Part shown: positions 240 to 56,868 of the stretch, piece by piece | Layout: each line of letters starts with the position of its first letter | Position numbering within the stretch: the first letter of the stretch is position 1 | NCBI RefSeq assembly: GCF_002886185.1 | Contig: NZ_KZ614146.1 | Coordinates: 2,030,930 to 2,094,929 of the forward strand | Origin: Salipaludibacillus neizhouensis | Lineage (GTDB): Bacteria; Bacillota; Bacilli; Bacillales; Salisediminibacteriaceae | Length of the DNA: 64,000 bases | Direction: 5' to 3' | Notes under the pieces: generated by a model | The model's input: only the letters and a program-made list of their open reading frames with translations | What the model was told of the DNA's origin: nothing | The model's database searches: none | Made by a program: the position numbers and the translations under genes

Positions 240-1637
240 TCAAAAGGTTTTTTCGACTTTTTCAGACATCCTCGAACGAGAAATGTGAGAACCTTTACTT
301 TTGCCTTTTTTTCTTCTTCGCTTCTTCCTCTTTGGAGGGAACCCAGCTATACTCATGGCATACAGAAAGGGTGTACTCTTAACTTTAGGTGCTAACTTTG
401 GGTCTTCTACTGGATATACTTGCCTAAGATTCATCTCTAGGATCCAAACATGCAGGTTTTTGTCTACGACAAAATCGATGGCAATATCTCCGTAACTACC
501 TTTCTTGTCGATCGTTTTACAAGCACGAGTACAGATATCAATTATTTGTTTTTCTAGGGAGGAAGCACCTATCCTCCCTAGTTTGAAAATTCGTCGAAAG
601 GCTTTACGACCTGTTAGCCAATAATCCAAGTTTCGTATATTAGTTATAATGCTCCCAGGATTAGAAATCCGGGCGGTGATACCTGAGGATTTCCAATGTT
701 TGAATTTATTCTTTTGCATGTAGATACGAAAATCTATATTCCTTGATTGATGCTTAGTCGGCACGCCCTGTTGAACAAGATATGGTTTTGATCCGTTGAT
801 CCGCTTTTGAAGAATAGAGTGGTCCTCTAAATTTGTAACACTCGTTTTATTCTTTTTATCATTTGTGATGTGGATAATAGATCTATCACGCTCTAATTGC
901 ATAATTCCTCTACCTTCTGAACCTTTGATTGGTTTTAAATAAACGGAAGAATAAGTTCCAAGCATTTCCTTAACTTGTTCAATCGAGTTTACCTTTTTTG
1001 TGTAAGGAATGTATTTTTTTAAAGTTGAATCTGGGGACAACCATTCCCACATTTCCCACTTATTGAAAAAGTATGAATTAAATATGCTACCCTTGGTCAA
1101 CTTGTAGAGATGCTCATTTGCTGTTTTGGCTAGCGGTACTCTTTTATAAACAGCACCAGGAGAGGAAAAGGTTGCTTTTTTCCACTTTGAGTCCCCATTC
1201 GGCATTTGTGGTTGGAAATAGTACCCTTCAATCTTCTGTTTTTTGGTATTGATTCCCTCTTCAGCACAAATACAAATCATTCCTCTTACTTGAACATATT
1301 CTTCGATCCGTTTTTGTAATTTATTTAGTCTTTTGCTCAGTCGCTCATTCGTGTTGGCTGCAATCCATAATATCATTGGTCCTACTTGCAATGTTTTTTT
1401 TGTTATTCTGAACTCATAAGAAAGATCATCAGGAATGAAAAGTTCATTTTTAAGATTTTCAGATAGACCAATAGTGTCATCTGAAAGGTCTTTATCAAAT
1501 CGGACAGTCATCTTTCTACTCCAAGAACCAAAATGAAAATCAATCATCCCTGAGGAAATTTTTCCCTCACTTCGAAAGCTCACTGGCAAATGGATATCCC
1601 CATTTTTTTTTATACGTATATACTTTATTTTAAGCAT
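240..1637 (-). CDS. YheC/YheD-family ATP-grasp protein with basic tail
   Basis: This 465-residue protein is recognised as a YheC/YheD-type (endospore coat-associated) ATP-grasp protein. The N-terminal third is the family-specific region. The ATP-grasp fold follows, with SVYLKPIKGSEGRGIM (ATP-binding lysine and glycine loop, about residues 235-250), DFRIYMQ, and the metal-ligand segment IDFVVDKNLHVWILEMN near residue 400. The usual Glu-x-Asn reads E-M-N. The last 35 residues are a Lys/Arg/Ser-rich tail (KRKKRRRKKGKSKG), unlike the core domain. The start is supported by GGGAGG seven bases upstream. ATP-grasp enzymes ligate a carboxylate to an amine through an acyl-phosphate; the substrate here is unknown. 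A CATATAATA element upstream on the minus strand resembles a mother-cell sigma -10. It is the first of four family members in 13 kb. Confidence 0.85.
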   Translation of the reverse strand: MLKIKYIRIKKNGDIHLPVSFRSEGKISSGMIDFHFGSWSRKMTVRFDKDLSDDTIGLSENLKNELFIPDDLSYEFRITKKTLQVGPMILWIAANTNERLSKRLNKLQKRIEEYVQVRGMICICAEEGINTKKQKIEGYYFQPQMPNGDSKWKKATFSSPGAVYKRVPLAKTANEHLYKLTKGSIFNSYFFNKWEMWEWLSPDSTLKKYIPYTKKVNSIEQVKEMLGTYSSVYLKPIKGSEGRGIMQLERDRSIIHITNDKKNKTSVTNLEDHSILQKRINGSKPYLVQQGVPTKHQSRNIDFRIYMQKNKFKHWKSSGITARISNPGSIITNIRNLDYWLTGRKAFRRIFKLGRIGASSLEKQIIDICTRACKTIDKKGSYGDIAIDFVVDKNLHVWILEMNLRQVYPVEDPKLAPKVKSTPFLYAMSIAGFPPKRKKRRRKKGKSKGSHISRSRMSEKVEKTF

Positions 1638-1666
1638 CTAGGCGCCTCCCACCTTCTATTTTTTAA

Positions 1667-1675
1667 TATTATATG
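1667..1675 (-). promoter_or_regulatory. Possible sigma-E/K-type -10 element
   Basis: On the minus strand this reads CATATAATA, matching the CATANNNTA pattern of SigK -10 elements and also close to SigE. It lies about 30 bases upstream of the YheC/YheD start at 1637. No -35 AC at the ideal 16-base distance is visible, so this is tentative. Confidence 0.35.
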
Positions 1676-1858
1676 AACATACAGAAAGATCGGAGTGGAC
1701 GAAATAAAACTAAAGTATTTAATTGAGTAATTAAAATCAGAAGTTAACAAATTATATTAGCAGTAGCATATATGTGTTTAGAAGATCTAACTCGGTGGGT
1801 AACAAGATAACCCTTTACGTAACTTCCCCTTAGATGCAGCGAAAACGCACATATTTTA

Positions 1859-1926
1859 TTAATAGCCTAATAATCAATTCTACTAGTCAAAACACCAAGC
1901 ACAACATTTAATAATACATAGGATAA
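1859..1926 (+). repeat. Direct repeat copy 1, probable promoter module
   Basis: About 68 bp beginning TTAATAGCCTAATAATCA, with ACTAGTCAAA and ACCAAGCA, and ending in CATAGGATA (1917-1925), a SigK-like -10 sequence. A second diverged copy lies at 2498-2565 with its CATA at exactly the same offset (58 bases). Copy 1 lies just upstream of the small gene at 1960. Confidence 0.55.
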
Positions 1927-1959
1927 CGTACAAGAATAATTCTTAAGGGAGGAATAAAA

Positions 1960-2208
1960 ATGGGCGTAGCTAATTTAAGTCTAGTTAGTGTAGAGATTAC
2001 AGCGCTTGATGGGGTGGACCTTATTGAACCACTTACAGTTTTTACAGGCCAGTCATTTCCAGAAGTGAATGGGAATGTTATGTTTGAAGTATTTGGTGAG
2101 CAGATTATTGCGCCATCTCCAACAGTGGATCTTGTTGAAGAAGAAGATATTGATGTAGCAGGTATTGGAATACTTACTCTATCAATATCAGTTCAACACA
2201 TTGAATAG
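1960..2208 (+). CDS. Small acidic hypothetical protein, likely sporulation-linked
   Basis: I do not recognise this 82-residue protein. It has a good ribosome site (AAGGGAGG, eight bases before ATG), no cysteine, no signal peptide and no membrane span. It is acidic (a D-L-V-E-E-E-D-I-D-V run near residue 60) and alternates hydrophobic and polar residues, which suggests beta structure. A CATAGGATA element about 35 bases upstream resembles a SigK -10, and the upstream 68-bp module is shared with the ATP-grasp gene at 2732, so the two may be co-regulated. A structural or carrier role on the spore surface is possible but only inferred. Confidence 0.6.
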   Translation: MGVANLSLVSVEITALDGVDLIEPLTVFTGQSFPEVNGNVMFEVFGEQIIAPSPTVDLVEEEDIDVAGIGILTLSISVQHIE

Positions 2209-2725
2209 AAAAGTTCTTCTCCGTCTTTTGAAAAGCGATATGAATTTTAACAAATGCCTCCTCAAGAAAATGGATCAGCGAGGTAATTGTTCATAGAATC
2301 TAGAATATTTAATCTCCGTGTCCTTTCAGTAATTACTGAAGGAAAAGCTGCCTTCATTCAGTTACAATTCCCCCCATATAGCCATGGATGTATAACGGTA
2401 AATTCATGGTTCACCACCTACACCTCAACTATACAACAGTCATCTCCAAGTTTGCCACGCAAAAATTTTCTATCTCTTTTTAAACCCTTCTTATAATTTA
2501 ATAGCCTAATAATCACTCCAACTAGTCAAAGAACCAAGCAACGTTTATAAAAATGCATAAGATGGTTAAAGTCCAAAGAATAATGTTCAGGAAAAATGTT
2601 GCAATAGCAACCCATTTATTTAGTATCCTAAAGCATTAGCTTATAAGATCACTATATAAACATTATCAAATTGAGTAATTTTCTATTTACAGTAAAATAT
2701 AGATTAACAAAATTCGAGGTGTTGA
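2209..2725 (+). other. Intergenic region with second promoter-module copy
   Basis: I see no convincing gene here: an open frame at 2287-2496 lacks a ribosome site and any recognisable composition. The notable content is the second copy of the 68-bp repeat (2498-2565). Confidence 0.5.
2498..2565 (+). promoter_or_regulatory. Direct repeat copy 2 with SigK-like -10
   Basis: Diverged copy of 1859-1926 that shares TTAATAGCCTAATAATCA, ACTAGTCAAA and ACCAAGCA, and ends in CATAAGATG at 2556-2564. It lies about 165 bases upstream of the ATP-grasp gene at 2732. Conservation of the CATA position in both copies supports a promoter function. No canonical -35 AC is at the ideal distance. Confidence 0.45.
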
Positions 2726-2731
2726 TTGTCT

Positions 2732-4252
2732 ATGGCTAAAAAACCTTTAATTGGTATCTTAGTGAGAAACCCTACAAGGTTACGATATTATGAGATGACG
2801 AAGCCATTAAACGTTCATTTATTAATATTTAACTCTAAAGGAATAAATTGGACAAATAAAAGAATTGATGGTTTAGTATTCGACGGCACCAAATGGAAAA
2901 AAAAAAATTGTCCCTTCCCTTCCGTAATCTATAATCGGTGTTATTCTATAAAACAGCATTTGGTGACCAAATTAGACGAAGTTATTGGTAAAGGAAAAGT
3001 ATTTAATTGTATTACGAGATTTGACAAATGGAGAATTCATCAAATATTACAAAATAGTTCTGTAGGAAGTTATTTACCAAATACGCATCTATTTCACAAT
3101 AGCAATTTATTAGACCTACTATCAAAGTACAGAAAACTTATTCTTAAACCATGTATAGGAAACTTTGGAAGACGTGTTTACTTGATTGAACAGACTGATA
3201 ATAATAAATTTAAATTATTCATTAATATAAACAGGAAAAATATTAATGAGCAAATATCCAAAGATAATCTAAACCATTTTCACACCGAAAAATCAGTAGG
3301 TGAAACTAATAAAATAAATATACAGAAACTTCATGCATTAATAAATGATGAAGCGTTTTTAGACGCAGCAATAATAAATACTTCAAACCCCCAAAATTTC
3401 ACAAAAGGTATCGATGATTTAATAAAAAAAGAAAGGTTTTTAGTACAAAAGTTTATTCCTCTGGATCAAACCGATCAAAAGATCTATGATATCCGGATGT
3501 ACGTGCAAAAAAATGAGCAAGGAAAATGGATAGTTACTGGCGGGCTTAGTAGAGTTGCCCATCCCACTTCATACATTACTAATTTGTCAACAGAAATAAA
3601 AAGCTTTATTAACATCCTTGAACGTAATAACAACCTGTCTGTTATTATATTAAAAACCATGAAAACCTTAAGTGTACAAATTGCTCATGAAATTGAAAAG
3701 AAAATAGGTCATTTGGGCGAACTGAGTGTTGATTTTGGTTTAGACGAACAAGGAAATCCATGGCTTATAGAAGTAAATGGTAATCCACAAAGAAAAATTG
3801 TGGAACGAATAAATGATCCTAAATTAACTAAAGATCTATATGTTATGCCGATTAAATATGCTCTCTTTTTGGCATCCAATAAAATTAAAAAGCCTTTTTT
3901 GGTTAATTCACCTGTTTCTAATAACAATTTGTTACAAAAGGAACGAATGAAAGATCAAGAACCTATAAGCAAAATAAAACAATCCAGTAAAACCATGGAA
4001 ACTATCCTTAGTAAATCTGTTTTACTAGAGCAATTAACTTCTTCCAGTATCACAGGAAAAATTTTAATAAACTCAGCAACATTGGGACCTCTCCAGAAAA
4101 TACATCGCATCGGTCCGGCTAGGGCAAAGCAAATTATTGCTATGCGTGAGTCACACCCATTTAAATCGTACGACGACTTGCAAAACATCAAAGGTGTGGG
4201 TCCTACTTTAGCTAATGATATTAAAACACAAGGCTTAGTCTCTTTTGATTAG
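2732..4252 (+). CDS. YheC/YheD ATP-grasp protein fused to a helix-hairpin-helix domain
   Basis: A protein of about 506 residues. Residues 1-370 form a YheC/YheD-type ATP-grasp unit: LILKPCIGNFGRRVY (ATP-binding loop), YDIRMYVQK, and SVDFGLDEQGNPWLIEVNGNP with the Glu-x-Asn metal ligands. A linker of about 60 polar residues leads to a C-terminal segment (about 440-505) with two hairpin motifs, IHRIGPARAKQIIAMR and LQNIKGVGPTLANDIK, typical of ComEA-like helix-hairpin-helix DNA-binding domains. That fusion is unusual for the family. ATG 2732 (GAGGTG ten bases upstream) is preferred; an in-frame TTG at 2726 would add two residues but is only four bases from the ribosome site. A hairpin terminator follows at 4414. 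Confidence 0.85.
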   Translation: MAKKPLIGILVRNPTRLRYYEMTKPLNVHLLIFNSKGINWTNKRIDGLVFDGTKWKKKNCPFPSVIYNRCYSIKQHLVTKLDEVIGKGKVFNCITRFDKWRIHQILQNSSVGSYLPNTHLFHNSNLLDLLSKYRKLILKPCIGNFGRRVYLIEQTDNNKFKLFININRKNINEQISKDNLNHFHTEKSVGETNKINIQKLHALINDEAFLDAAIINTSNPQNFTKGIDDLIKKERFLVQKFIPLDQTDQKIYDIRMYVQKNEQGKWIVTGGLSRVAHPTSYITNLSTEIKSFINILERNNNLSVIILKTMKTLSVQIAHEIEKKIGHLGELSVDFGLDEQGNPWLIEVNGNPQRKIVERINDPKLTKDLYVMPIKYALFLASNKIKKPFLVNSPVSNNNLLQKERMKDQEPISKIKQSSKTMETILSKSVLLEQLTSSSITGKILINSATLGPLQKIHRIGPARAKQIIAMRESHPFKSYDDLQNIKGVGPTLANDIKTQGLVSFD

Positions 4253-4413
4253 TTTGTTAATGAAGCATGTTTTCGGTTTCTGACTGTATCAAGCGATTAT
4301 AATAACCCTTATATAAGTTTCTTGCCTAGATTGTCCCACTTTTTTTACTGTCACTTAGATTTCTGTGATGGTATTTATTAGCAGATTTTTTTCAAGCAAG
4401 TCACTTCTGGACG

Positions 4414-4450
4414 TTAGCACCTAAACCACTAGCATAGGTGCTAATTTTTT
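4414..4450 (+). terminator. Rho-independent terminator
   Basis: Perfect 10-bp stem TTAGCACCTA / TAGGTGCTAA with an 11-base loop, followed by six Ts. It lies 160 bases after the ATP-grasp gene ending at 4252. Related hairpins occur at 9801-9861 and 51277-51307. Confidence 0.7.
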
Positions 4451-4576
4451 CATCGTTTCGGAAATTATGGATTTATGAATGACGGATAGCTTTTAGAGTG
4501 AAGAGTGCCGTCTAGCTCGTCGCAGATAAACATTGCTATCTTAGGCGCTTGCGTTTTTGTTCTTAGACAAACCCAC

Positions 4577-5065
4577 TTATGCTTCATACTTCTTAATCGT
4601 TTGATACATTCTTAAATCATTTAAAAAACGAAATCCTTCAACTTTAGGAGTCCCGTTCACTTCAATGACCCAAACTTTCCCATTTCTATCTTCGCCAAAG
4701 TCGAACCCCAAAATGGTTTGTTTTGGAAATGATAAAGTTAAACATTTTGTAGCGTTTAAAGTCAGCCAGTTCAAATCGGATATGATTTTGTTTATAGCTG
4801 AATCTTTAACATTTGACTTTTAAAGGGCTTCTCTCACGGTAACTACACGGGCTCCTTTTTTCAAATTTGTAATAATAAATCCAGCTCGCGCTATTTCTCC
4901 ATATGTTCCTGTAATTACCCACTTCGTTTTCGTTCCTCTCCGCTGAACGATATAGCGAAAGTCGATTGGCTTTTTATTTACTTTTACCGATTCAGGGAAG
5001 TGGGGTGCTAGGTTCTTATTCTTGATTAAGAGTTTGTGTTTATCCAATTTACACTTTCTATTCAT
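4577..5065 (-). pseudogene. Truncated YheC/YheD ATP-grasp protein with an in-frame stop
   Basis: Only the C-terminal half of a YheC/YheD-type protein is left. It shows PIDFRYIVQR, the ARAGFIITNLKKGA segment, LGFDFGEDRNGKVWVIEVNG (Glu-x-Asn metal ligands) and FLNDLRMYQTIKKY. A single TAA at 4820-4822 interrupts an otherwise continuous frame: 81 codons precede it, and the same frame continues afterwards with KSNVKDSAINKIIS into the second half. The N-terminal ATP-binding half is missing, yet the remnant has its own start with GGGAGG upstream, which suggests a deletion followed by a nonsense mutation. Paralogue of the genes at 240, 2732 and 12435. Confidence 0.8.
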
Positions 5066-5167
5066 ATCTATTAATCCCTCCCCACATGAATGTTTCTTAT
5101 ACTATGGTTATATGAGTTTTTTACATAAATGATTGTATAAGTGACTCATTTTTATAAAAATAGGACA

Positions 5168-5428
5168 ATGCCGGATACATCTGAAGAGGAAAAGAATAGA
5201 GTATTAAATGTCGCAAGAAAAAATTTAAGAAGGGAGTTTGCTTTGAAGCCCCTATACACTCTTTTTGATATATTTGGACCTGGGTATATTTTTAATGGAA
5301 AAGGATCCTATCAAAAACAGTCAATGGCTTACCGATACACCATTTCGCAGAATTTATCAACGGGAAGATTATTAACTGCCACGGGAAAGACGCCTTTAAT
5401 TATTCATAAAAATGTAATCGCAATATGA
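5168..5428 (+). CDS. Small hypothetical protein
   Basis: An 86-residue protein of unknown function, hydrophilic and basic, containing FDIFGPGYIFNGKGSY and TGKTPLIIHKNVIAI. ATG 5168 is the more plausible start; an in-frame GTG at 5141 would add nine residues. The ribosome site is weak. It sits between the broken ATP-grasp gene and the Mur-ligase gene and could be a lineage-specific part of the island or a fragment. No domain is recognised. Confidence 0.4.
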   Translation: MPDTSEEEKNRVLNVARKNLRREFALKPLYTLFDIFGPGYIFNGKGSYQKQSMAYRYTISQNLSTGRLLTATGKTPLIIHKNVIAI

Positions 5429-5554
5429 TAATAAGAAAAAGTAATAAGGTCTTTTTAACGACAAACTGGGCCATTCATTGCACAAACTATCTTTTCAATA
5501 ATAATATGAAGTACTGATAGAAAAATAATATAACTCTTCCTAGGAGGGAAACTT

Positions 5555-6874
5555 ATGGCATCAATTGTTCCTAGAATTCCAGCGATTGGAGTGACAGGGA
5601 GTGCTGGAAAGTCAACAACCACCGCATTTATTTACGCTATTTTTAAAACCAGATGGAAACATGTATTGAAAACGCGTGGGAATCGTAATTTACCTCGTCA
5701 TACAAAGGAGAATGTCCAAAGGATTAGACCTTCTCATAAAGCAGTTATTTTAGAAATGGGCTTAGGCAGAGCAGCAGGAAAACATCATTTTCGTTATATT
5801 AAACCTAATATTGGAGTCATAACTAATGTCGGGACAGCTCATTATGGAAGACTAGGAAATAGTATAAAAGCAACCGCTAATGCAAAATCTTCCATGATTA
5901 AATATATGAATCCTAAAGGAACACTGTTGATAAATCAAGATGACCAAAATTCAAAATTGCTAACTACGCAGAAATTTAAAGGCAAGCTCGTGACAGTAGG
6001 TATAAAAAATAAAGCAAATTACCAAGCCAGAAATATTAAATATTTAAAAAATGGTATGACTTTTCAAGTTCCTTTAAATAGAAAGTTAGAAAGCTTTTTT
6101 ATTCCAACATTCGGGGACCATAATGTGATCAATGCATTGTTTGCAATTGCTATAGCCCATCGACTACGTTTTTCTCCATCCAAAATAAGAGTAGGGCTAA
6201 GAAAGTACAAAGCCCCGGCTCGTAGGTTAAATGTTATTCCTCTGCCTAAGAAATCTCTTTTAATAGATGATACGTTTAATGCCAATCCGCAATCAGTAAA
6301 AGCAGCGACTGATGTACTAGTAAAACTTGGCAAGGGTAAAAATAAAATAATAGTGGTAGGAAGTATGCTTGAATTAGGAAAGTATTCTACTAGAGGACAT
6401 CAAGAAGTAGGAAGATATTTAGCAAAAAAAGGAATTCATAGAATTTTCGTGTTTGGAAAAAAAGCGAGGGCGATAAGACGTGCGGCTATTGCTGCTGGAT
6501 ACCCTCCTAAAAGCATACACTCATTTACCAACCGTATACAATTACACAATATGTTAAAAATTCATGTCACACCTAATAGTGTCATTTTAGTAAAAGGATC
6601 ACACCGTATGAAAATGAAAGACACAGCCGGATTTTTAGCAAGATACAGTCTTAAATACAATCGAAAGACACGGTTGAAACATAAAGTTGATTTACCAACA
6701 AAAATGTCTCCGCAATCACCAAAGAGTATTGTAAAAAAAAACGTGGTTGTTTTTAAGGAAAAGGAAAAACCTGTTGAGAAAGTAATTGATGAATGTGAAA
6801 TATGCCAGGGTGAGAATATGTATATTAAAGGGACAAAAACCATTATGCCATGTCCATCATGTAATGCGACATAA
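5555..6874 (+). CDS. Mur-ligase-family protein with C-terminal Zn-ribbon-like tail
   Basis: A 439-residue MurF-like protein that begins directly at the central ATPase domain. The P-loop GSAGKSTTT is at residues 15-23, with ILEMGLG, ITNVGTAHYGRLG and LLINQDDQNSKLL, then the C-terminal Mur domain (IDDTFNANPQSVKAA, VVGSMLELGKYS, VLVKGSHRMKM). The N-terminal UDP-substrate-binding domain of true MurF is absent, so it is unlikely to be the housekeeping enzyme. After about residue 350 come 90 extra residues ending in C-E-I-C and C-P-S-C, a probable metal knuckle. AGGAGGG precedes ATG 5555. The family joins an amino acid or peptide to a carboxylate by way of an acyl-phosphate; the acceptor is unknown. 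Confidence 0.8.
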   Translation: MASIVPRIPAIGVTGSAGKSTTTAFIYAIFKTRWKHVLKTRGNRNLPRHTKENVQRIRPSHKAVILEMGLGRAAGKHHFRYIKPNIGVITNVGTAHYGRLGNSIKATANAKSSMIKYMNPKGTLLINQDDQNSKLLTTQKFKGKLVTVGIKNKANYQARNIKYLKNGMTFQVPLNRKLESFFIPTFGDHNVINALFAIAIAHRLRFSPSKIRVGLRKYKAPARRLNVIPLPKKSLLIDDTFNANPQSVKAATDVLVKLGKGKNKIIVVGSMLELGKYSTRGHQEVGRYLAKKGIHRIFVFGKKARAIRRAAIAAGYPPKSIHSFTNRIQLHNMLKIHVTPNSVILVKGSHRMKMKDTAGFLARYSLKYNRKTRLKHKVDLPTKMSPQSPKSIVKKNVVVFKEKEKPVEKVIDECEICQGENMYIKGTKTIMPCPSCNAT

Positions 6875-6967
6875 GGATACTTGTCATTTGAACCGAATCA
6901 AAATGAGACACGTTAGACCCTTAACGATATCGGTTTCTGTAGGACTACATTTATGAGGGGGTTAATT

Positions 6968-8044
6968 ATGAAACTAAAAGTTGGGTTACTTTTTGGAGGC
7001 AAGTCACCGGAACATCAGGTTTCTTTGCAGTCAGCAAAGAGTGTCTTTGAAGCCATCGATAAAGATAAATATGAGATTCTACTAATTGGAATTGATAAAG
7101 AAGGAAAATGGAACCTTTATGATAATTTAGACACATGTCTCTTAAATAACAATAACCCAAATTTAATAGAATTAAAAAAATCAGACAAGAGCATTGCACT
7201 TGTACCTGGAGAATTGAGTAATCAGTTTCTAGAATTACCCAGTGGTGCTTCATTAGGAAAAATTGATGTCATATTTCCTTTAGTGCATGGAGGTTTAGGC
7301 GAAGATGGCAGTATGCAAGGACTACTTCGATTTGCTAATATACCATTTGTCGGGCCCGGTGTTTTAGCGTCTGCTGTTAGTATGGATAAAGATGTTGCAA
7401 AACGGCTGCTCTCCGATGCTGGACTAAGAGTAGCCCATTCCTTGACATTTACAAGAAAAATGAAAGATACGATCGCCTTCAAGAAAGTAAAAAAGAAGCT
7501 AGGAACACCTATGTTTATTAAACCTGCTAACCATGGGTCATCAGTGGGAGTCAGTAAAGTCGAGTCAAAAGAAGAATTTTATCAGGGAATCAACCATGCA
7601 TTTTGTTATGATCAAAAAATCATAGTCGAAGAAGCGATAGTTGGAAGAGAAATAGAATGCGCTGTGTTAGGGAATGATGAGCCAATTTCATCCTTACCAG
7701 GAGAAATTCTAACCCAAAATACATTTTACTCTTATGATGCAAAATATATAGATGAAAAAGGAGCTCAATTAACTATTCCTGCTGTACTTGAGGATATTGT
7801 CATTCAAGAGATCAAAGAGAAAGCAATTAAAGCTTTTAAGGTCTTACATTGTGAAGGATTGGCCAGGATAGACTTCTTTTTAACCCAAAATCAAAAATTA
7901 ATTATCAATGAGATTAATACACTACCAGGATTTACAAAACAAAGTATGTATCCAAAATTATGGGAAGTTAGCGGAATACAATATAAAGAACTTATTAATA
8001 CGTTAATTAGTTTAGCGATCGAAAGACACCAAATAAGCATTTAA
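6968..8044 (+). CDS. ddl: D-alanine--D-alanine ligase family protein (island copy)
   Basis: A Ddl-type ATP-grasp enzyme of about 358 residues. Visible elements are VGLLFGGKSPEHQVSLQSA (N-terminal), GEDGSMQGLL and VGPGVLASAVSMDK, the ATP-binding MFIKPANHGSSVGVSKV, the loop FYSYDAKYIDEKGAQLTIPA (Tyr as in D-Ala-D-Ala enzymes rather than Phe of many D-Ala-D-Lac enzymes) and RIDFF...INEINTLPGFTKQSMYP with metal-binding residues. It starts at ATG 6968, after a GAGGGG-type ribosome site. Its position between two Mur-ligase paralogues, not beside a normal murF, suggests it supplies or couples a dipeptide for the island's pathway. A second housekeeping ddl may exist elsewhere (inference). Confidence 0.85.
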   Translation: MKLKVGLLFGGKSPEHQVSLQSAKSVFEAIDKDKYEILLIGIDKEGKWNLYDNLDTCLLNNNNPNLIELKKSDKSIALVPGELSNQFLELPSGASLGKIDVIFPLVHGGLGEDGSMQGLLRFANIPFVGPGVLASAVSMDKDVAKRLLSDAGLRVAHSLTFTRKMKDTIAFKKVKKKLGTPMFIKPANHGSSVGVSKVESKEEFYQGINHAFCYDQKIIVEEAIVGREIECAVLGNDEPISSLPGEILTQNTFYSYDAKYIDEKGAQLTIPAVLEDIVIQEIKEKAIKAFKVLHCEGLARIDFFLTQNQKLIINEINTLPGFTKQSMYPKLWEVSGIQYKELINTLISLAIERHQISI

Positions 8045-8148
8045 CACGATTATATTAGAATAGGATCCGCCTTTCACCATTATATATTCGCTCCTAAAAA
8101 TGTTTTTGCGTGATATCCCCCTATACTCATTGCCTTCATCCACATACA

Positions 8149-8157
8149 CATACAGTA
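8149..8157 (+). promoter_or_regulatory. Possible SigK-like -10 element
   Basis: CATACAGTA fits CATANNNTA and lies 57 bases upstream of the Mur-ligase-like start at 8214. No -35 AC lies 16 bases upstream, so support is weak. Confidence 0.25.
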
Positions 8158-8213
8158 CATGAAGTTATTCCAAAGTTAGCTCACTCAATAAATCGTCCTA
8201 AGGGGGAAAATTG

Positions 8214-9305
8214 ATGACTCGTCCGATTATAGCAATATCAGGTAGTGCAGGAAAATCAACAACAAAAGAAATGATTTCTTCTATCTTACAACAAAGGTGG
8301 AAAATTGTTAAAACCATAAGGAATAAAAATACGATACCAAATACGAAACTGCACGCCTAACGAATAAATCCATCACATAAGGCTATGGTTGTCGAATTCG
8401 GAATGAGTAGACATGGACACATTAGATCACACTTGCGTTATATTCGTCCAAATATAGGTGTAATCACCAATGTAGGTAGTGCGCATATTGGGAATTTTGG
8501 AGGTCGCGTGGAAGGATTAGCCAGAGCAAAATCAGAATTAATTAAAGGAATCACGTCTAATGGAACATTGTTAGTGAATGCCGACGACTCTAATTCAAAA
8601 TTACTTCATACGCAAAAATTTAAAGGAACAATGATAACGGTAGGTATTCATCATGAAAAGGCCAATTATCGTGCCACTAATATTGAATATACGAAAAAAG
8701 GCATGTCTTTTCAGCTAATATTAGACCGAAAATCACAAAAATTTCAGATTCCTATTTATGGTGAACACAATATTTATAATGCTATATTTGCCATTGCTGT
8801 CAACCATTATTTGGGGTTTTCACATACTGAAATCAATACAGGGTTAAAAAAATATCGAAAACTAAAAAGACGTTTAAACATCAGGCGTATTAGGTCTGGT
8901 ATAACCATTATAGATGATTCCTATAGCGCAAACCCTCATGCTGTGAAATCGGCTATTGATGTTTTATCACACATTGGAAAAGGCAGCAATAAAGTAGCTG
9001 TTTTAGGGAGCATGACTCGATTGGGTGCTTATCGCGTTAAAGGACACAAAGAAGTAGGGAAATATATTGTTGAACGAGATATACAGCACTTATATACCTA
9101 TGGGAAAGACGCTCAATGGATAAAGGATAGTGCAATAGAATACGGTTTTCCTAAACAGAACGCATACCATTTTACCGATAAACGAGCCTTACACTATCAT
9201 TTATTAAGAAAGATTGCCTCAGAATCGCAAACCACCATTTTAATAAAAGGTTCGAATAAAATGAAAATGGGTAAAACTGTGCAACTATTGATTAAACACA
9301 AATAA
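8214..9305 (+). pseudogene. Second Mur-ligase-like gene interrupted by one nonsense codon
   Basis: Paralogue of the Mur ligase at 5555. The frame opens at ATG 8214 (AAGGGGG upstream) with MTRPIIAISGSAGKSTTK, the intact P-loop, and runs 48 codons to TAA at 8358-8360. It then continues in the same frame with RINPSHKAMVVEFGMS through ITNVGSAHIGNFGGR, IIDDSYSANPHAVKSA and ILIKGSNKMKMG. Alignment to the paralogue (NVQRIRPSHKA against HA-stop-RINPSHKA) puts the stop at a Gln position, so CAA to TAA is the simplest explanation. It lacks the Cys-rich tail of its paralogue. An internal start at 8385 would lose the P-loop and could not be active. Confidence 0.85.
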
Positions 9306-9340
9306 TGAAGTAGGAAAATGCACCTCCCCCCCTTCATTAT
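9302..9340 (+). terminator. Hairpin after the Mur-ligase pseudogene
   Basis: ATAATGAAG pairs with CTTCATTAT across a 21-base loop directly after the stop at 9305. There is no T-run, so it may act as an mRNA-end structure rather than an intrinsic terminator. Confidence 0.35.
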
Positions 9341-9418
9341 CATGATCGTTAAAAGAAAAAATTCCGTTTTTCGTTTACTAATTATGGATTTCATTTTAAA
9401 GGCAAGGGGTTATACAAT

Positions 9419-9691
9419 ATGGAAAGATGTCATCTCATAGTTTATGGAAAAGTTCAGGGAGTAGGCTTTCGCCGCTACACTCGCAGAAAGGCTATTCTAT
9501 ATCAGATCAAAGGATGGATTTGTAATAAAGACAATGGCACCGTTGAAATAGTTGCTCAAGGTTCGCCCGTAAAAATGAGAAGTTTTATTAGGGCAGTAAA
9601 AAAGGGTTCTAAAAAATCAGAAGTTAATCGAATAAAGTTATTCAAATCTGATGACATAAATAGTTATCGGAAGTTTATAGTAAGGTATTAA
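9419..9691 (+). CDS. acyP: Acylphosphatase
   Basis: A 90-residue acylphosphatase, the normal family length. It shows the anion-binding and catalytic loop YGKVQGVGFRRYTRRKA (catalytic Arg in GFR) and GWICNKDNGTVEI, whose first Asn is the catalytic Asn position. An AAGGGG-type ribosome site precedes ATG 9419. The enzyme hydrolyses carboxyl-phosphate mixed anhydrides. Its place in an island of ATP-grasp and Mur ligases, which work through acyl-phosphates, suggests editing or clean-up of stalled intermediates, but that link is inference. The C-terminus (SYRKFIVRY) keeps the usual aromatic-rich end. Confidence 0.9.
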   Translation: MERCHLIVYGKVQGVGFRRYTRRKAILYQIKGWICNKDNGTVEIVAQGSPVKMRSFIRAVKKGSKKSEVNRIKLFKSDDINSYRKFIVRY

Positions 9692-9800
9692 TGTTATGCT
9701 ACAAATTAAATTCTTATGTATTGAGCCTTAACATGGTCGAAAACTTGTTAAGTATATGAACAAAAGCACAAGCACCTTGATCATCGACGTAGAAGCTCGG

Positions 9801-9861
9801 TTAGCACCAACTCCAGTAGTACCCATGAATGACGTGTAGGTGCTACTGGCAAGGGTGCTAA
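9801..9861. repeat. Compound palindrome
   Basis: Nested inverted repeats: TTAGCACC with GGTGCTAA outside, and CCAGTAGTACC with GGTGCTACTGG inside, around a central loop. The arms resemble the TAGCACCTA hairpins at 4414 and 51277. It lies between the acylphosphatase gene and the IS1182-type remnant. Confidence 0.5.
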
Positions 9862-9973
9862 AGATGAGGAGGTCTCATACCCGTGTCGATGTTTTAATTC
9901 GCTATTTTTAGCTTCAATTTTGTATCTGCTTTTTGATTTTTCTTTGAAAGGTTCTGAGTTTTGAAAGGCTCAA

Positions 9974-11198
9974 TTAACCGGCGTGTTCTTCTGATTTAAG
10001 AGAGACAGAGTATGTGTTTGATTTTGCCCCTGGTTTATAGCATCCCTCTTGCAATGGACATCGTTTACATTTTTCAACTTCGAAATAATAGGTATCGGTT
10101 TGGTTTTTCACAGTCCCTTTTTTACCGATACGTGCTTTGCGAATCGCTAAATGTCCTGCAGGACATACATACTTTCCAGCATCTTTATTAAATTCAAATT
10201 CATCTTCTTTTTTTCTCGTCCCTAGTACAGCCGGTTTGAGTTTTGCGACGAGCTTTATACCATGTTGACTTGTGTAGTAGATATTTTTTTTCTGAATAAG
10301 CTGCATCTCCAACAACGGATTCAACAACCATGCCCGCCTTTTGACTTTTTTCGATTAAAGTTTTCAGTTCTTTGCCATCATTCTTTTCTCCCGTTGTGAT
10401 CGTTGCTCCAGTGATGATCCGTTCGTCACTCATCGCAAGATGAGTCTTATACCCAAAGAAAGAAGAATTCTTGGATTTATGACCGACTCTGGCATCCGAA
10501 TCTTCCGATTCTCTTATAAAATGACGATCATCATCAAGGGTCTCTTTTAAAAGGTTAAGAGGCTCTTTTACTTTCGGATATGTAACAAGCTTTGGTTTAT
10601 CTTCTATGATTTTTACCAAGTCCTCTGTATAGGCTGCTTCGATCGTATCTTCTACAGGCTTTTTCGGGAATTTTTCTTTCATGGTATCATCAATGGAGTA
10701 GATCACTTTTCGTACTTGTTTCGATTGATTTCTCAATATTTCCTGAGGTGTCTTTTGGTTATACCGTACTTTTGTGTAAGTGGCATCTACGATTAATACA
10801 AGCGATTGAATAATTTCTTTTTCAATCGCACTTTCAACAGTTTTCTCGATCAGAAGGTCCAACAGGTTCATATCTTTCAATCGCTGACGACGAAATTTTG
10901 TTAAGGAACTCGAGTTAATTGGCCTGTCTTCTGACACCATATCTAGAAAGTATTTAAAGGACATATCCACTTGAACCCGTTCGATCAAATCCTGATCTGA
11001 CAGTGTCTAAATCGTCTTCAAAAGAAGATATTTAAACATGCTTAGATAATGGACGGCATTCCGTCCATTATCTAAGCAATACTTTTCTTTTAGTTCATCA
11101 TAAACAAATGAAAAATCGATGAGCTCATTAATTTTTCTTAAGAAATGATCCTCCGGAATAATCGCTTCATACAAACCGTTATAAACACTTAATTTCAT
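9974..11198 (-). pseudogene. IS1182-family transposase remnant, copy A
   Basis: Three pieces of one transposase lie in order on the minus strand. Piece one (11198-11007) holds the N-terminus and ends in KTI followed by a TAG where the family has a Tyr. Piece two (10988-10200) continues in frame with DLIERVQVDMSFKYFLD and the catalytic core. Piece three begins after a frameshift at the T8/A8 run near 10285 and carries AGHLAIRKA, CKRCPLQEGCYK and YSVSLKSEEHAG. The C-terminus is missing relative to copy B (11406-12036). Stop, frameshift and truncation together make it inactive. Confidence 0.8.
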
Positions 11199-11334
11199 TG
11201 AATGCTGGTGTTCTAATCATCAAATCCCCCACCTTAAGCTCGATTGTGTTCCTATCTCCAGTTGATTTTTAAAATTTTTGAGACGCCAGCGGGAAAAGCA
11301 ATGGGCGCAGACCCCGCAGGGTGATTTTTGAGTC

Positions 11335-12330
11335 CACTGAAAAAGTCTCCACCAACTCAATATTCTCGATTATAATTAAAATATTAGTTGGAAGGGGTGC
11401 GTCACATGATCCAGAATCTAGAAGAAATTAAATTGAGTCCACATATGGAGTTGTATGAGTTAGTCATTCCAAAAGATAATCAACTCCGTCAAATCAATGA
11501 ATTAGTAGACTTTTCATTTGTCCTATTCCGGTCACGAGAATTTAACGTTTGCGAAGAACTCCAAGTTTCGCCTTGTTTCTAAGTGACATCCGGTGATTAC
11601 ACATGGAAAAAGAGTAAAAGAAGATGAATTTATCTTCAATAAAGACGCCGGTTTATATATGTATCCGGCCGGCCATCTAGCAACCAAAAAATCGAACAAA
11701 AAACGAAAGAACCGCACCACATAATTAAAACATTACTTCAACATCAGTAAATGTCGCGTTTGTCCATTACGAGATGGATGTTACAAAGAAAATGCAAAAA
11801 CAAAAACGTATTCCATCACCATCAAATCTACTGAACACCTCGATCAAGCGACGTTTCAAAAAGCAGAAGCGTTTAAAGAACTCGCGAAAGAACGCTACAA
11901 GATCGAAGCGAAAAATAGTGAATTAAAGAATCGACACGGGTATAAAAAATCTTCAAGCTCGGGTCTCTTTAAACATGCAAATCCAGAGTGCAATCACTAT
12001 ATTCGTGGTAAATATAAAGCGAATATTGAAACTTAAAAACGAAAAAGAGTAAGAAATAAGATGAGATATAGGCCTGAATCATCGAGAATCTGGTTCAGCG
12101 AGTTCTATATCACTTTTTTTTACGTTTACACTCAATAAAACTGACTTTATCAGTGGCCTCGTGATTTTTCCCGAGGAGGCTAAGGCATAGCCCGCGGCAA
12201 GCGAATAAATTTTCAAAATCGATCCGATAACACATTGTGTATGTTTTCTATTGTGACAAGAAAACAGCCTGCTATTTTCAATTTGAGTAAATAACAGGCT
12301 GTTCAATTTAACTATCGGACTTTTTCAGTG
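11335..12330 (+). mobile_element. Internally deleted IS1182-type element, copy B
   Basis: The element is bounded by inverted ends CACTGAAAAAGTC (11335-11347) and GACTTTTTCAGTG (12318-12330). It keeps a transposase N-terminus from 11406 (LYELVIPKDNQLRQINELVDFSFV), then jumps to C-terminal sequence (YMYPAGHLATKKS, CRVCPLRDGCYKENA, KNRHGYKKSSSSGLFKHA) ending near 12036, with a further stop in between. Most of the DDE core is deleted. Two hairpins lie near the right end. It faces copy A head to head. Confidence 0.75.
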
Positions 12331-12434
12331 CCCTCCTCTAGGTAGAGGGGTTTTTCGATTCTTTGATATGGAACTCTCTTTTTGTTGAGTAAAATTAGAT
12401 GCTAAGCCTTCGAAGGGAGTTTCTAGAGGTGCAT

Positions 12435-13577
12435 TTAAAAGATTCTATTCTCTTGTTTATGAAGATAAATACAGTATTCTAAAGGATTAATAAATGCGCT
12501 TCTTATAGTTTGCTGTGGTGATTTTGCAACTAGATAAGCTAATTTAGTAGATGTAGAATTACATTCAATAAACCACAATTGCTGGTTTGAATCTAAGGCA
12601 AAATCTATGGCAGTTTCACCTAGAGAACCATAAATTCTTTCTATACTTTCATGAAATTTTCTAAGAAAGACTTCTATTTTCTGTTTTAATAAGTCTGCTT
12701 CTTCCTCTGAATAATTTAAATAGGAACGAATAAAAGGATCGAAGCGAAAAAACTCTGCACCGGAAGGTAAATTTGTAATAGGTGAGTTTTCGGCTCCGAT
12801 TCGCGAAAAAATATCTATAACTTTTAACTTACCATTCCCTGTTCTTTGTATCTCAGCACGCATATCTGTCATCCTGTTATTGTTAACTTTAATAGAATTA
12901 ATCGCCGACTGCATTATTGCTTTTTTATTTCTTAATATTCTTCTGATGACTTTTGTTAACTCATTATATGTTTTTACCTTACGATATACTAACCTTCCTG
13001 AAAAATATTTATATTCATAACCCTGCCCAGGAACCATCCTCACGTGAATGATACTATTGCCTAGTCTTCCTACCCTCGGTTTTATATAAACTGAATGATT
13101 ATAAGCAAACATTTTTCTTAGATCTGTTGGGTGGTTGTACAGCATAGTAATGGGTAAATATTTTGAAACTTCTTCATCTTTTAACAGCTCTTGGTAAACA
13201 TTCCATTTGTCAAAGGCGCTTCGTGCATTTAAAAAGTAAACGCCATTTTTTATTAAACTCTCACGAAGTTTCATATTTACGTTATTATTAATTTCACGCG
13301 TTCGACTGTATAATACATCGGGGTATGAGTATTCTTTTCTACGCCATTTTTCGGATTGAATATCAAAATAAACGCCATTTATTGTTAATTCCACAAGGTT
13401 TATATCTTTTCGTGAAAAGAAAAATAATTCAGTATTATTTAATCCATTATTCGCTCTCACAAGCTCTCTGACTGTAAATTTATATTCTTGTTTTATATAT
13501 ATATTGTGAATAGCTTTTGTGCTTATATATACTCCTATTCTAACTTTCTTAGGTTGTAGGGATCGAAAAAGATTCAT
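12435..13577 (-). CDS. YheC/YheD-family ATP-grasp protein
   Basis: A YheC/YheD-family protein of about 380 residues. Features are VRIGVYISTKAIHN at the N-terminus, YPDVLYSR and FDKWNVYQEL, HSVYIKPRVGRLGNSII (ATP-binding loop), MTDMRAEIQR, SRIGAENSPITNLPSGA, and ETAIDFALDSNQQLWFIECN with Glu-x-Asn metal ligands. ATG 13577 has AAAGGAG eight bases upstream; the in-frame GTG at 13586 overlaps that ribosome site and is less likely. It lacks the basic or helix-hairpin-helix tails of its paralogues. It is separated from the rest of the island by the IS1182 remnants and precedes the glycan locus. Confidence 0.85.
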   Translation of the reverse strand: MNLFRSLQPKKVRIGVYISTKAIHNIYIKQEYKFTVRELVRANNGLNNTELFFFSRKDINLVELTINGVYFDIQSEKWRRKEYSYPDVLYSRTREINNNVNMKLRESLIKNGVYFLNARSAFDKWNVYQELLKDEEVSKYLPITMLYNHPTDLRKMFAYNHSVYIKPRVGRLGNSIIHVRMVPGQGYEYKYFSGRLVYRKVKTYNELTKVIRRILRNKKAIMQSAINSIKVNNNRMTDMRAEIQRTGNGKLKVIDIFSRIGAENSPITNLPSGAEFFRFDPFIRSYLNYSEEEADLLKQKIEVFLRKFHESIERIYGSLGETAIDFALDSNQQLWFIECNSTSTKLAYLVAKSPQQTIRSAFINPLEYCIYLHKQENRIF

Positions 13578-13586
13578 GATTTCCAC

Positions 13587-14099: not shown

Positions 14100-15236
14100 T
14101 CATTTATTCTGCTCGTTAAAAAGTGTATCCATAAATTTGATCATTTCTTCAGCAGGTGAATTTACGACATTATAAGGGTTTTTTTTGTGACTATTAATTT
14201 GGGATAATGCCTTTTGTATTTTCTTTTTAATATTTGACGAATTATAGTCTACATGAAGAACATTATCACCGTGTTCCCGATTCTTTTGTCTATTTCCTAT
14301 ATTGATAAAAGGCAGATTAAAAAAAGGCGCTTCTATAATACCACTACTGCTATTACCAACCAATACATTTACCTGAGACAACAAAAACAAATATTCATCT
14401 GCAGGGAGAGAATGAAAATAAGTAGCATTCTTATTTTGGGCCACAAATTCATTAATATATTTACTAAATACTTCCCCTCCAGCATCACTGTTAGTTCCTA
14501 ATAGAATGAGCTGTGTCTCAGTAAACTCCCTTAAAGCAGCTAAAGTCGTATTAATTTGACTGGAAATAGGGGTACTTTCTTTAGAATCTGGGTGCATAAT
14601 AAATAAAATCTTTTTTTTACTTCCAGATAACTTTAATTTTTTACTAAGGAATTGTTTTTGAGTGTCGTTCATATTTTTAATTTTTTGAATGTCATGTTTT
14701 CGTAAAGAACCAATAACGAATATGTTTGAAGGTTTTTCTTGCATCGAAATTAAGCGGATTTTTGATTCAAATGAAGAGACAAAATGAAAGTTGGATAACT
14801 TGGATATTGCATGCCTGACTGCATCATCTGCAGATCCTGACTTCTCCCCCCCATGCAGATGAAAGATCAAGACATTTAAGTAGTGAGCTGATATGGCAGC
14901 GGATAACATTTCTCCTCTATCTCCTAGAATAAGAATTGCATCAGGTTCAGCTTGATCAATAATGTCTGCAAAATATATTGTAGCCAACCCTATAGACTTA
15001 GACATTGCTCCTCTAGAATCTCCCTTCAATAAAATAGAGGGAGTAGAAAGGATATAAAAAGGATCTTCTCGCAGTTCATTAATTGTTTTTCCGTATTCCT
15101 CCAAAAGATGCATACCTGTTACAACAAGCTGTACATCTAAAAATGAGCATTTTTCTATTTCGAATAAGAAAGGCCTGTAGATACCATAGTCTGCTCGAGT
15201 TCCTGTGAAACATAAAATTTTCTTATTTTCCCCCAA
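14100..15236 (-). CDS. neuC: UDP-N-acetylglucosamine 2-epimerase (hydrolysing), NeuC/LegG type
   Basis: A 378-residue hydrolysing 2-epimerase of the NeuC/LegG kind. Signatures are FTGTRADYGIYRPF at the N-terminus, HLHGGEKSGSADDAVRHAIS, ILFIMHPDSKE, and GNSSSGIIEAPFFNLPFINIG with the UDP-binding Ser/Glu residues. It would remove the nucleotide and epimerise C2 to give the free ManNAc-type or 2,4-diacetamido sugar used by the synthase encoded just upstream (gap 18 bases). The start is TTG 15236, with AAAGGAAGGTG upstream. It is the last gene of a three-gene minus-strand operon. Confidence 0.9.
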   Translation of the reverse strand: MGENKKILCFTGTRADYGIYRPFLFEIEKCSFLDVQLVVTGMHLLEEYGKTINELREDPFYILSTPSILLKGDSRGAMSKSIGLATIYFADIIDQAEPDAILILGDRGEMLSAAISAHYLNVLIFHLHGGEKSGSADDAVRHAISKLSNFHFVSSFESKIRLISMQEKPSNIFVIGSLRKHDIQKIKNMNDTQKQFLSKKLKLSGSKKKILFIMHPDSKESTPISSQINTTLAALREFTETQLILLGTNSDAGGEVFSKYINEFVAQNKNATYFHSLPADEYLFLLSQVNVLVGNSSSGIIEAPFFNLPFINIGNRQKNREHGDNVLHVDYNSSNIKKKIQKALSQINSHKKNPYNVVNSPAEEMIKFMDTLFNEQNK

Positions 15237-15254
15237 AATGCACCTTCCTTTATT

Positions 15255-16292
15255 TCATGTTTCTAAGTCCTCCCATAATAAAGGTGATCCGATTGGTTTA
15301 TCACATTTAATTTTTTTACCTATTATATTTTTAAATTGCTTCGCCTCAATATGTGTGGCAGGTCTTAGGTACGACAAATCTTCTTCAGATAATCTGTGAC
15401 CTTTAGTGACTTCCTTACCAAGATAGATACCTCTTCTTACCGTTTTTTTAGTATCTAATTCAGAGGGTGTAACATGCTTTACTGTACTGCCCAATGCTGC
15501 CTCTATCTGTCTTATACCTTTAACCATTATTTTGAAATCTTCCGTGTTCAAAGAGGATTTGTGGTCTGGTCCTTCCATGGTATTATCCAAAGTAAGGTGC
15601 TTTTCAATTATTTTATATCCTAAACTTGTTGCTGCATAAGGTATTTCTATCCCTAAAGTGTGATCTGAATAACCAACTATACAATCAAAGTGCTCTTTAA
15701 AGGTTTCGATTACTCTTAAGTGAACTTCATTGTAAGGAGCGGGGTATGCTGACGTACAATGTAACAGCGCCAGTTGAGTATGTTTCGGGAAAATTTGTAC
15801 CGCGTCTTGGATATCCTGCAAGGTTGCCATCCCAGTTGAAAGTATGATTGGCTTATTATAAGTTGCAAGCTGTTGAAGCAAAGAGTAATGTGTTAAATCA
15901 CCACTTCCAATCTTATATGCAACTACATTCATTTCTTCCAACAGCTCCGCACTTTTCTTATCAAAAGGAGTTGAAATAAAAGTGATACCAAGATCATCAC
16001 AAAACTTTTTCACCTCTTCAAACTCTTGTCTATTTAATTGATATTTTTTTAGCATGTCAAACTGTGAAGTATAATTCGTACTTTTTTGGTATATTGCTAA
16101 TTTACTTTTTGGAGTTACTAATTGATCAGTTTGATAAGTCTGAAACTTTACAGCATCTGCACCTGCCTTTTTGGCTGCGTTTATAAGTTGTTTTGCCATG
16201 TTTACAGACCCGTTATGATTTACTCCTATTTCTGCAATGATATACACGCTTCCTTTATCGGTTACTGCAATATTACCAATCTTGAAAGGCAT
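15255..16292 (-). CDS. neuB: N-acylneuraminate/legionaminic acid synthase, NeuB family
   Basis: A nonulosonic-acid synthase of about 345 residues that condenses a six-carbon sugar with phosphoenolpyruvate. It shows YIIAEIGVNHNGS, AGADAVKFQTYQTDQLVTP, FISTPFD, VAYKIGSGDLTHYSLL, STGMATLQDI, LHCTSAYPAP, VGYSDHTLGIEIP and EKHLTLDNTMEGPDHKSS. A C-terminal SAF/antifreeze-like domain follows (RRGIYLGKEVTKGHRLSEED). ATG 16292 has GGAAAGGA eight bases upstream and gives the usual MPFKIGN start; an upstream in-frame start at 16325 has no ribosome site. It lies between the aminotransferase and the 2-epimerase. The exact sugar cannot be read from sequence. Confidence 0.92.
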   Translation of the reverse strand: MPFKIGNIAVTDKGSVYIIAEIGVNHNGSVNMAKQLINAAKKAGADAVKFQTYQTDQLVTPKSKLAIYQKSTNYTSQFDMLKKYQLNRQEFEEVKKFCDDLGITFISTPFDKKSAELLEEMNVVAYKIGSGDLTHYSLLQQLATYNKPIILSTGMATLQDIQDAVQIFPKHTQLALLHCTSAYPAPYNEVHLRVIETFKEHFDCIVGYSDHTLGIEIPYAATSLGYKIIEKHLTLDNTMEGPDHKSSLNTEDFKIMVKGIRQIEAALGSTVKHVTPSELDTKKTVRRGIYLGKEVTKGHRLSEEDLSYLRPATHIEAKQFKNIIGKKIKCDKPIGSPLLWEDLET

Positions 16293-16326
16293 TTTCTCAA
16301 TCCTTTCCAACAAATTAATCATCACA

Positions 16327-17430: not shown

Positions 17431-17615
17431 TCTTAACCTCCTCCTTCACCAATCATCATTCCTTACTCATCTTATTAAGCTTAAAGCGTACATAGACCTC
17501 TCAACATACACCCATTTTAATATATATTTTCTAAAAGTAGTTTTTTAGCTTGTGCATCAGCAATTTTCCAATCATACCCTGCTATAAGTAAGTAACTAAA
17601 AGAGAGGTGTTTTTT

Positions 17616-18635: not shown

Positions 18636-19124
18636 TTGCAACGGAGAAAAAAATGAAGTTATATGGTCGTGCACTCTAGAATTCTTTTCCCTTTTTCACC
18701 ATATAAAATATGCACGTGTTCCTATTGCACTACCATTATTAAGAGATTTCCAAAAATATATGAAACACCACTAGTGTTGCATAAAATTTTACATTCATCC
18801 TTTTTAGAGCCAAAAAGGTTTCGTGAGTAACTGAAGTAGCCTGGAGATGCTTCCAATTATGTTACTGGGTAAAACATTGTCGTAGATGGGGGTCTTTCTC
18901 CTTGGTAATAAAATATCGGGGTTCCAGTAATAATGAATCTAATATTGCTGGTTGTTCGTTGACAGAGTTGTTCGAATATTGTCTAGAAAATAAGCTTAAT
19001 TGTTGGGTTCTTGTCCGTTTCATGCTTCTATACAAAGAATATAATAGTATCAATATTAGTTTAATTTAAAATTAGAGAAAGAGAACCATTTATCATTGAC
19101 AAGAAAGGATGGTTTAGGTTTATT
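18636..19124. other. Intergenic region, no recognisable gene
   Basis: About 490 bases without a convincing coding frame. A minus-strand open frame at 18862-19053 has no ribosome site and no recognisable domain. AT-rich sequence before 19125 probably includes the promoter of the next gene (TATAAT at 19040-19045, no clear -35). Confidence 0.3.
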
Positions 19125-20812: not shown

Positions 20813-20820
20813 AAGTGATA

Positions 20821-25503: not shown

Positions 25504-25559
25504 ATCTTAACAAAATAACTTCTTAAATTTAATACTGATAATGAGGAGGTTTGTTTAGT

Positions 25560-25787: not shown

Positions 25788-25812
25788 ACTAATAAAGAGG
25801 AGGAATTAATAA

Positions 25813-26496: not shown

Positions 26497-26508
26497 AGGA
26501 GGAACTGC

Positions 26509-56809: not shown

Positions 56810-56868
56810 CGAATTCCCTCCTTGCACGTAAATAAACTACGTGACATTCTCTAAAAACCTCTCGCTTG

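Follow-up and report, generated by a model that had tools for sequence, protein, structure and literature searches.

What is made by the ligases that crowd together in one part of the Salipaludibacillus neizhouensis genome? The window, i.e. the whole stretch of 64,000 nucleotides that was analysed, opens with an island of YheC/YheD (YheC/D) ATP-grasp genes, MurF-type ligase genes without the uridine diphosphate (UDP)-binding N-terminal domain (referred to as truncated Mur), a D-Ala-D-Ala ligase (Ddl) gene and an acylphosphatase gene. ATP-grasp and Mur ligases both activate a carboxylate as acyl-phosphate and then join it to an amine. On balance, we favour reading the island as a spore-specific module for UDP-free amide ligation that works on a spore-envelope product, with two ligases serving one product. 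This reading is built on gene content and order, recurrence in relatives, gene fusions, catalytic motifs, predicted folds and, in the samples drawn, restriction to genomes with SpoIVA. The features of the island present in the window are the following:

240..1637, minus strand: YheC/D ATP-grasp ligase, 465 amino acids (aa), intact (PF14398, 205 bits; ExN motif kept)
1960..2208, plus strand: small protein, 82 aa, predicted all-beta; candidate substrate or coat component
2726..4252, plus strand: YheC/D ATP-grasp protein, 508 aa, with a ComEA-like helix-hairpin-helix at the C-terminus (PF14398, 196.1 bits; PF12836, 42.7 bits)
4577..5065, minus strand: broken YheC/D remnant in two open reading frame (ORF) pieces (PF14398, 43.5 bits on 4820-5065; TAA inside the genome match)
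5555..6874, plus strand: intact MurF-type ligase of 439 aa that lacks the UDP-binding N-domain (PF08245, 122 bits; PF02875, 68 bits; alignment)
6953..8044, plus strand: DdlA-type second D-Ala-D-Ala ligase, separated from the preceding Mur gene by 78 bp (Dala_Dala_lig_N and C; NF002525, 534.7 bits)
8214..9305, plus strand: second truncated Mur gene, Mur_ligase_M and C, interrupted at codon 49 by an in-frame stop
9419..9691, plus strand: acylphosphatase, 90 aa (PF00708, 87.7 bits)
9974..12030, no strand assigned: probable transposase debris, outside the system (DDE_Tnp_1 on 10200-10988; remainder by reading)
12435..13586, minus strand: YheC/D ATP-grasp ligase, 383 aa, intact (PF14398, 211.5 bits)

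This gene set agrees with the original prediction, which had listed four YheC/D genes (one broken), two Mur-like genes without the substrate-binding domain of MurF (one broken), a Ddl-type enzyme and an acylphosphatase; all were recovered with Pfam and NCBIfam models. Three intact YheC/D genes and the stop-bearing remnant exceed the PF14398 cut-off of 26.8 bits, and the metal-binding ExN motif of ATP-grasp enzymes is present in all 15 open YheC/D genes examined in the genome. The intact Mur protein begins at about residue 100-120 of MurF and so lacks the UDP-binding domain; its P-loop, catalytic Glu and catalytic Lys are invariant across 19 aligned rows, housekeeping MurF included. The Ddl exceeds the cut-off of the ordinary equivalog NF002525 (457), and its active-site columns are conserved in an alignment with solved Ddls and the other Ddl of the genome. 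The acylphosphatase lies well above the PF00708 cut-off of 22.5, and its best NCBIfam score (NF010995, 86) is below the cut-off of 110.

The predicted extent of 13.3 kb did not hold, since the edge of the window cuts an island of about 22 kb. In the following, C1 denotes the contig of the window in its own genome (G000), L numbers denote loci (L002 overlaps the window) and G numbers genomes. Out of 17 PF14398 matches in the genome, 12 fall within C1:2022404-2044500 and represent 11 genes or remnants. The entire island thus comprises 11 YheC/D (one broken), two truncated Mur (one broken), the DdlA-type ligase and the acylphosphatase; half of it, including seven open YheC/D genes, is located upstream of the window. 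Elsewhere in the genome, a short YheC/D gene lies beside a truncated Mur gene (C1:2368983-2371125), another Ddl and a full-length MurF are encoded together (C1:1209889-1212024), and there is one other acylphosphatase. The earlier statement that no peptidoglycan precursor genes are nearby needs care, because ddl is one itself. Decayed pieces of a Mur ligase and, after it, of a Ddl were found at G000:C1:257804-258812 (L013, L021); their reading as a third copy of the set was dropped because the Mur piece is absent from the truncated-Mur matches at E<=1e-60.

For the analysis of recurrence, the truncated Mur L007:1981-3075 was used as query with thresholds of E<=1e-60 in the family and E<=1e-70 in order and class. 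Matches were obtained in 8 of 35 family genomes, in 23 of the 397 genomes of the order sample and in 72 of the 398 of the class sample. Family and order hits outside the own genome gave 30 loci, two of them shorter than 20 kb, which were annotated with hidden Markov models built from own-genome genes. YheC/D was found in 23 of these 30 loci, vs 0.93 expected from per-genome YheC/D counts (P = 6e-31 under the assumption of independent loci, which does not hold for related genomes); chance clustering was therefore rejected, and the co-occurrence of YheC/D with truncated Mur proposed earlier indeed recurs in relatives. In a search of genome contigs, 9 of 80 loci among the matches listed were relatives with an identity of at least 44%; YheC/D was seen in none of the 71 remaining loci among the matches listed (L099-L169), a weak control because most of these are not spore-formers.

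In 14 of the 30 loci the two ligases form a single protein of 618-750 aa with the YheC/D part first, i.e. the ATP-grasp-then-Mur chain of cyanophycin synthetase, and in the window the genes are separate; the YheC/D half in L067 looks split. The reverse order, in a protein of about 800 aa, occurs in two loci (L071, L087). One fusion of each order was scanned and confirmed with Pfam. Named records with the fusion are three Lysinibacillus (L094-L096) and Lederbergia citrisecunda (L097); Desulfosporosinus sp. Tol-M (L098) carries YheC/D and truncated Mur as neighbouring separate genes, and open frames of 707-892 aa, the size of a fusion, lie at the match in 11 further class genomes. In a quick Mur tree without bootstrap, from which 11 of 110 rows (duplicate, broken, partial or distant) were left out, truncated Mur proteins form a clade distinct from housekeeping MurF and the fusions of the two orders sit on separate branches; we infer that truncated Mur and YheC/D were fused at least twice. 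Structure prediction and fold search gave a RimK-like plus a MurF-like ligase for the fusion, the UDP-binding N-domain being absent. Two further types of Mur protein were observed. In L070:8538-10688 (+), the truncated Mur is preceded in the same protein by an N-terminal part resembling L-amino-acid ligases, and this genome has no YheC/D match. A third clade of 28 rows, clustered with the fusions, contains Mur proteins of about 460 aa, e.g. L068:13319-14761 (-), with about 100 extra N-terminal residues that match no Pfam domain (one scanned).

The link to sporulation comes from genome distribution and from promoter motifs. SpoIVA is present in each of the 29 genomes in which the family and order searches found a truncated Mur. 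In the class draw, SpoIVA is present in 72 of 72 Mur-positive genomes vs 269 of 398 overall (hypergeometric 1.5e-14, kinship not corrected); these 72 include 18 weaker or partial matches, and the remaining 54 genomes all have SpoIVA. The sigma-E/K-like -10 core, with the consensus CATANNNTA, was found upstream of 45 of 231 genes of the set vs 30 of 416 other ORFs (p=5e-6), and the full -35/-10 pattern upstream of 31 of 231 vs 24 of 416 (p=0.001); these counts cover 46 sources, in which related genes are not independent, gene starts are first-start calls, and double counts arise from L090, a repeat of L060, and from the overlap of L002 with the window. The SigK-like motifs claimed upstream of several genes thus stand statistically over the relatives and hardly in the window, where the full pattern occurs at one gene of the set only (1960-2208). 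In the excerpts available of three papers on B. subtilis, YheC and YheD are under sigma-E/SpoIIID control and located in the coat (PMC517825, PMC7911427, PMC3533761), YheD is assigned to the basal coat layer (PMC3533761), and YheD self-associates and covers the spore, its function being given as not known (PMC7911427).

Genes that recur around truncated Mur in the 30 loci encode an ATP-grasp protein of the L-amino-acid-ligase type (19 loci), an NlpC/P60 peptidase (15), a CotZ-like coat protein (11; one scanned, PF10612 26.1 bits vs cut-off 24), an Asp/Glu racemase (5; the one scanned passes the cysteate racemase model) and the BMQ_0737 morphogenetic coat protein (3). A gene for a collagen-like surface protein with GPP repeats adjoins a YheC/D gene in L006:2700-5196. 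In the family of the window, ddl follows mur on the same strand at a distance of 55-136 bp in five of five loci (window, L061, L062, L063, L066), and the five Mur rows form one group (Shimodaira-Hasegawa-like approximate likelihood ratio test, SH-aLRT, 89). YheC/D and acylphosphatase are both near four of them; L061 has neither. The Ddls of the mur-ddl loci are 58-76% identical to that of the window, vs 47% for the other Ddl of the own genome. Within the 35 family genomes, a Ddl with at least 61% identity was found in the five with mur-ddl and also in G009 and G011; in these two it is the only match at E<=1e-60 and lies away from any truncated Mur found. L063 additionally encodes an Asp/Glu racemase fused to a C-terminal acylphosphatase (L063:11599-12621 (+), 340 aa) inside a YheC/D cluster. 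Neither Ddl nor acylphosphatase was found beside Mur in the 23 order-level loci except in L066, itself of the window's family. Recurrence of the exact set of YheC/D, N-truncated Mur, Ddl and acylphosphatase was borne out within this family (window, L062, L063, L066), and beyond it the four were not found together in the loci covered.

Truncated Mur genes also occur on their own, and here a first rival explanation arises, in which the truncated Mur belongs to a poly-gamma-glutamate-like (PgsB/CapB) polymer or turnover system that YheC/D joined in some lineages as a chemically dispensable partner. PgsB is a Mur ligase without UDP domain, the layout of the window's Mur. Among 28 loci that mostly lack YheC/D (20 class-level loci plus eight earlier ones), a PGA_cap (CapA/PgsA-like) gene adjoins Mur on the other strand in 12 (Pfam on 2 of 12), and the NlpC/P60 peptidases nearby could be polymer hydrolases. 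However, the window's Mur scores 35.6 with the PgsB model TIGR04012 (cut-off 222.7) and, unlike in PgsB/PgsA, no PGA_cap was seen beside it; nor is this family among the conserved neighbours (clusters in at least 3 loci) of the 30 first loci, and the fusion of truncated Mur to YheC/D also argues against this explanation, which we regard as rather unlikely.

In five of the same 28 loci (L188, L196, L198, L199, L200), a gene for an S11 D-Ala-D-Ala carboxypeptidase overlaps the end of the solitary Mur gene by 4-19 bases (Pfam on two); no signal peptide was evident by eye in the PGA_cap and S11 proteins. This overlap, the ordinary Ddl of the window and the nearness of its Mur to MurF would fit spare wall-precursor enzymes, i.e. 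a MurF/Ddl duplicate for peptide recycling that places D-Ala-D-Ala onto free murein peptides, with YheC/D marking a zone of spore-gene accretion. Against it stand the separation of the truncated Mur clade from housekeeping MurF, the repeated fusion to YheC/D in two orders and the coat-protein neighbours, so that we judge it unlikely.

The small protein of 82 aa raises a further alternative. Relatives of 78-82 aa, likewise predicted all-beta, are encoded by L005:5415-5654 (-) and L174:5733-5966 (-), and in all three places the gene lies 5' of a YheC/D gene (on the same strand in L005 and L174), as would be expected if this or a similar protein were a YheC/D substrate in graspetide-like maturation of a ribosomal peptide. 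However, the small protein occurs in only 3 of 35 genomes of the window's family, in G025 with no YheC/D nearby, no leader/core repeat was seen and the Mur would be left unexplained; this scenario is very unlikely. A weaker relative in L175 has no YheC/D nearby, no Pfam match was found for 1960-2208, and a fold search with it gave no match at E<=0.001 (best 0.19). The helix-hairpin-helix of 2726-4252, of the ComEA-like DNA-binding type, spans residues 445-500; in L005 and L174 the paralogs lack it and have KWWxFWK tails at the end instead, and a constant position of the small protein before a YheC/D gene with this domain was thus rejected. A glycopeptide- or cycloserine-tolerance set (altered ligase, second MurF, D,D-carboxypeptidase) is hardly credible: truncated Mur does have Ddl and MurF-like genes beside it, and genes for a D,D-carboxypeptidase in other genomes, but the Ddl scores as an ordinary equivalog and reaches no Van-type cut-off among the best 25 of 61 rows (best VanG, 343.3 vs 495), the Mur has no UDP domain, and Ddl and S11 were never seen in one locus.

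In the spore-specific amide-ligation module, YheC/D would take the role of RimK-like enzymes, which add amino acids to proteins or peptides: via acyl-phosphate, it would attach amino acids to the carboxylate of a spore-envelope protein, peptide or polymer, and the truncated Mur would join a second amine to the same product. As the UDP-binding domain is lost, this Mur should not act on a nucleotide-linked peptidoglycan precursor; the middle and C-terminal domains alone should keep the ATP and amine sites and take another carboxylate. That both ligases serve one product, as in cyanophycin synthetase (CphA), is suggested by their presence in one protein in relatives. Ddl adjacency in the window's family and the D,D-carboxypeptidase overlap elsewhere point to D-Ala-D-Ala, from the adjacent second Ddl, as the most likely amine of the window-type Mur. 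The acylphosphatase may clear stray, misdirected acyl-phosphates, and a racemase would supply a D-amino acid. In the C-domain, Mur proteins of the window type, solo ones and those of the reverse fusions carry a motif of the (N/S)ANP or SSNP type, and the YheCD-Mur clade together with neighbouring rows has HSHP, HAHP or HAFP (the search pattern failed for some rows); because of this difference, the amine may differ between the groups. Expression would take place in the mother cell, with the product destined for the surface of the spore. A narrower version, in which the UDP-less MurF caps a YheC/D-built peptide or polymer with D-Ala-D-Ala on its way from the mother cell to the spore surface, trimmed by D,D-carboxypeptidase elsewhere, is a tentative possibility.

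Several observations weigh against the module. YheC/D is absent from seven of the 30 loci (L060, L061, L064, L065, L070, L085, L089) and, within up to 20 kb, from 18 of 20 class-level truncated-Mur loci. This class-level sample, made up of the 19 loci from other genomes that are closest to the query and one additional locus, is biased to the query's branch. We infer that truncated Mur is able to work by itself and that some lineages acquired or retained the pairing with YheC/D. In the loci seen, Ddl and acylphosphatase do not extend beyond the window's family, and the presence/absence statistics carry no phylogeny correction. With the second Mur and one YheC/D gene broken, selection on the island may be weak here. 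The nearest coat-type genes of the window are far from the island, CotE, the outer spore-coat morphogenetic protein, being encoded at 56240-56827 (-) (PF10628, 272 bits). Directly after the island, at 14100-27141, nonulosonic-acid-type sugar genes were observed (UDP-GlcNAc 2-epimerase, NeuB, DegT aminotransferase, a 4,6-dehydratase-like protein, two cytidylyltransferases and a PglD-like acyltransferase), for which a spore-crust glycan and a flagellar glycan are both possible.

The YheC/D family was reportedly predicted in 2009 by Iyer to act in spore-wall or capsule modification, and no paper joining YheC/D with a Mur ligase was found among the open-licence papers searched. Through the fusions and operons, the multi-copy, spore-associated YheC/D proteins would gain a partner in the MurF-type enzyme and, in amide ligation, a chemistry. 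If so, spore envelopes would bear amino acids or peptides attached non-ribosomally, which ordinary coat proteomics would overlook, and the chemistry of MurF and Ddl would be employed outside the cell wall; D-Ala-D-Ala capping, if true, would mean that peptidoglycan-type chemistry was moved onto coat material by a ligase pair resembling cyanophycin synthetase.

Compared with known systems, the model cut-offs for membership in the CphA, MurF, PgsB and Van families were not reached. The window's Mur shares with MurF the middle and C-terminal domains and the catalytic columns, and has a Ddl next door; it differs in the absent UDP-binding domain and in its own clade (TIGR01143: 246.3, fusion 251, cut-off 288.6). 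YheC/D is only 12-18% identical to RimK, LysX-ArgX and glutathione synthetase, and 2726-4252 scores 24.3 with the NCBIfam model rimK_fam (cut-off 143.4). B. subtilis YheC and YheD share PF14398, whereas here many paralogs per genome and a Mur partnership are found. CphA1 resembles the fusion of the relatives in that a single chain carries an ATP-grasp part and then a Mur-type ligase, with no UDP domain, and Foldseek aligned the fusion model to the CphA1 structures 7lgj, 7lgq and 7lgn (ranks 10, 13 and 27), though CphA is absent from the 50 rows of a second fold comparison. Scores with TIGR02068 (cut-off 850) were 56.7 for the window's Mur and 69.6 and 60 for fusions; in contrast to CphA1, the Mur half is nearer MurF, the ATP-grasp part is YheC/D (PF14398) and the distribution is that of spore-formers. 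Co-occurrence, fusions, SpoIVA, tree and fold together uphold the original prediction in part: ligases that work through acyl-phosphates recur as a group, are linked to spore-formers and resemble cyanophycin synthesis in their logic, and the spore-surface polymer or peptide tag proposed with them is a candidate product. All parts of the island come from known families, and its pair of ligases follows the logic of cyanophycin synthetase.

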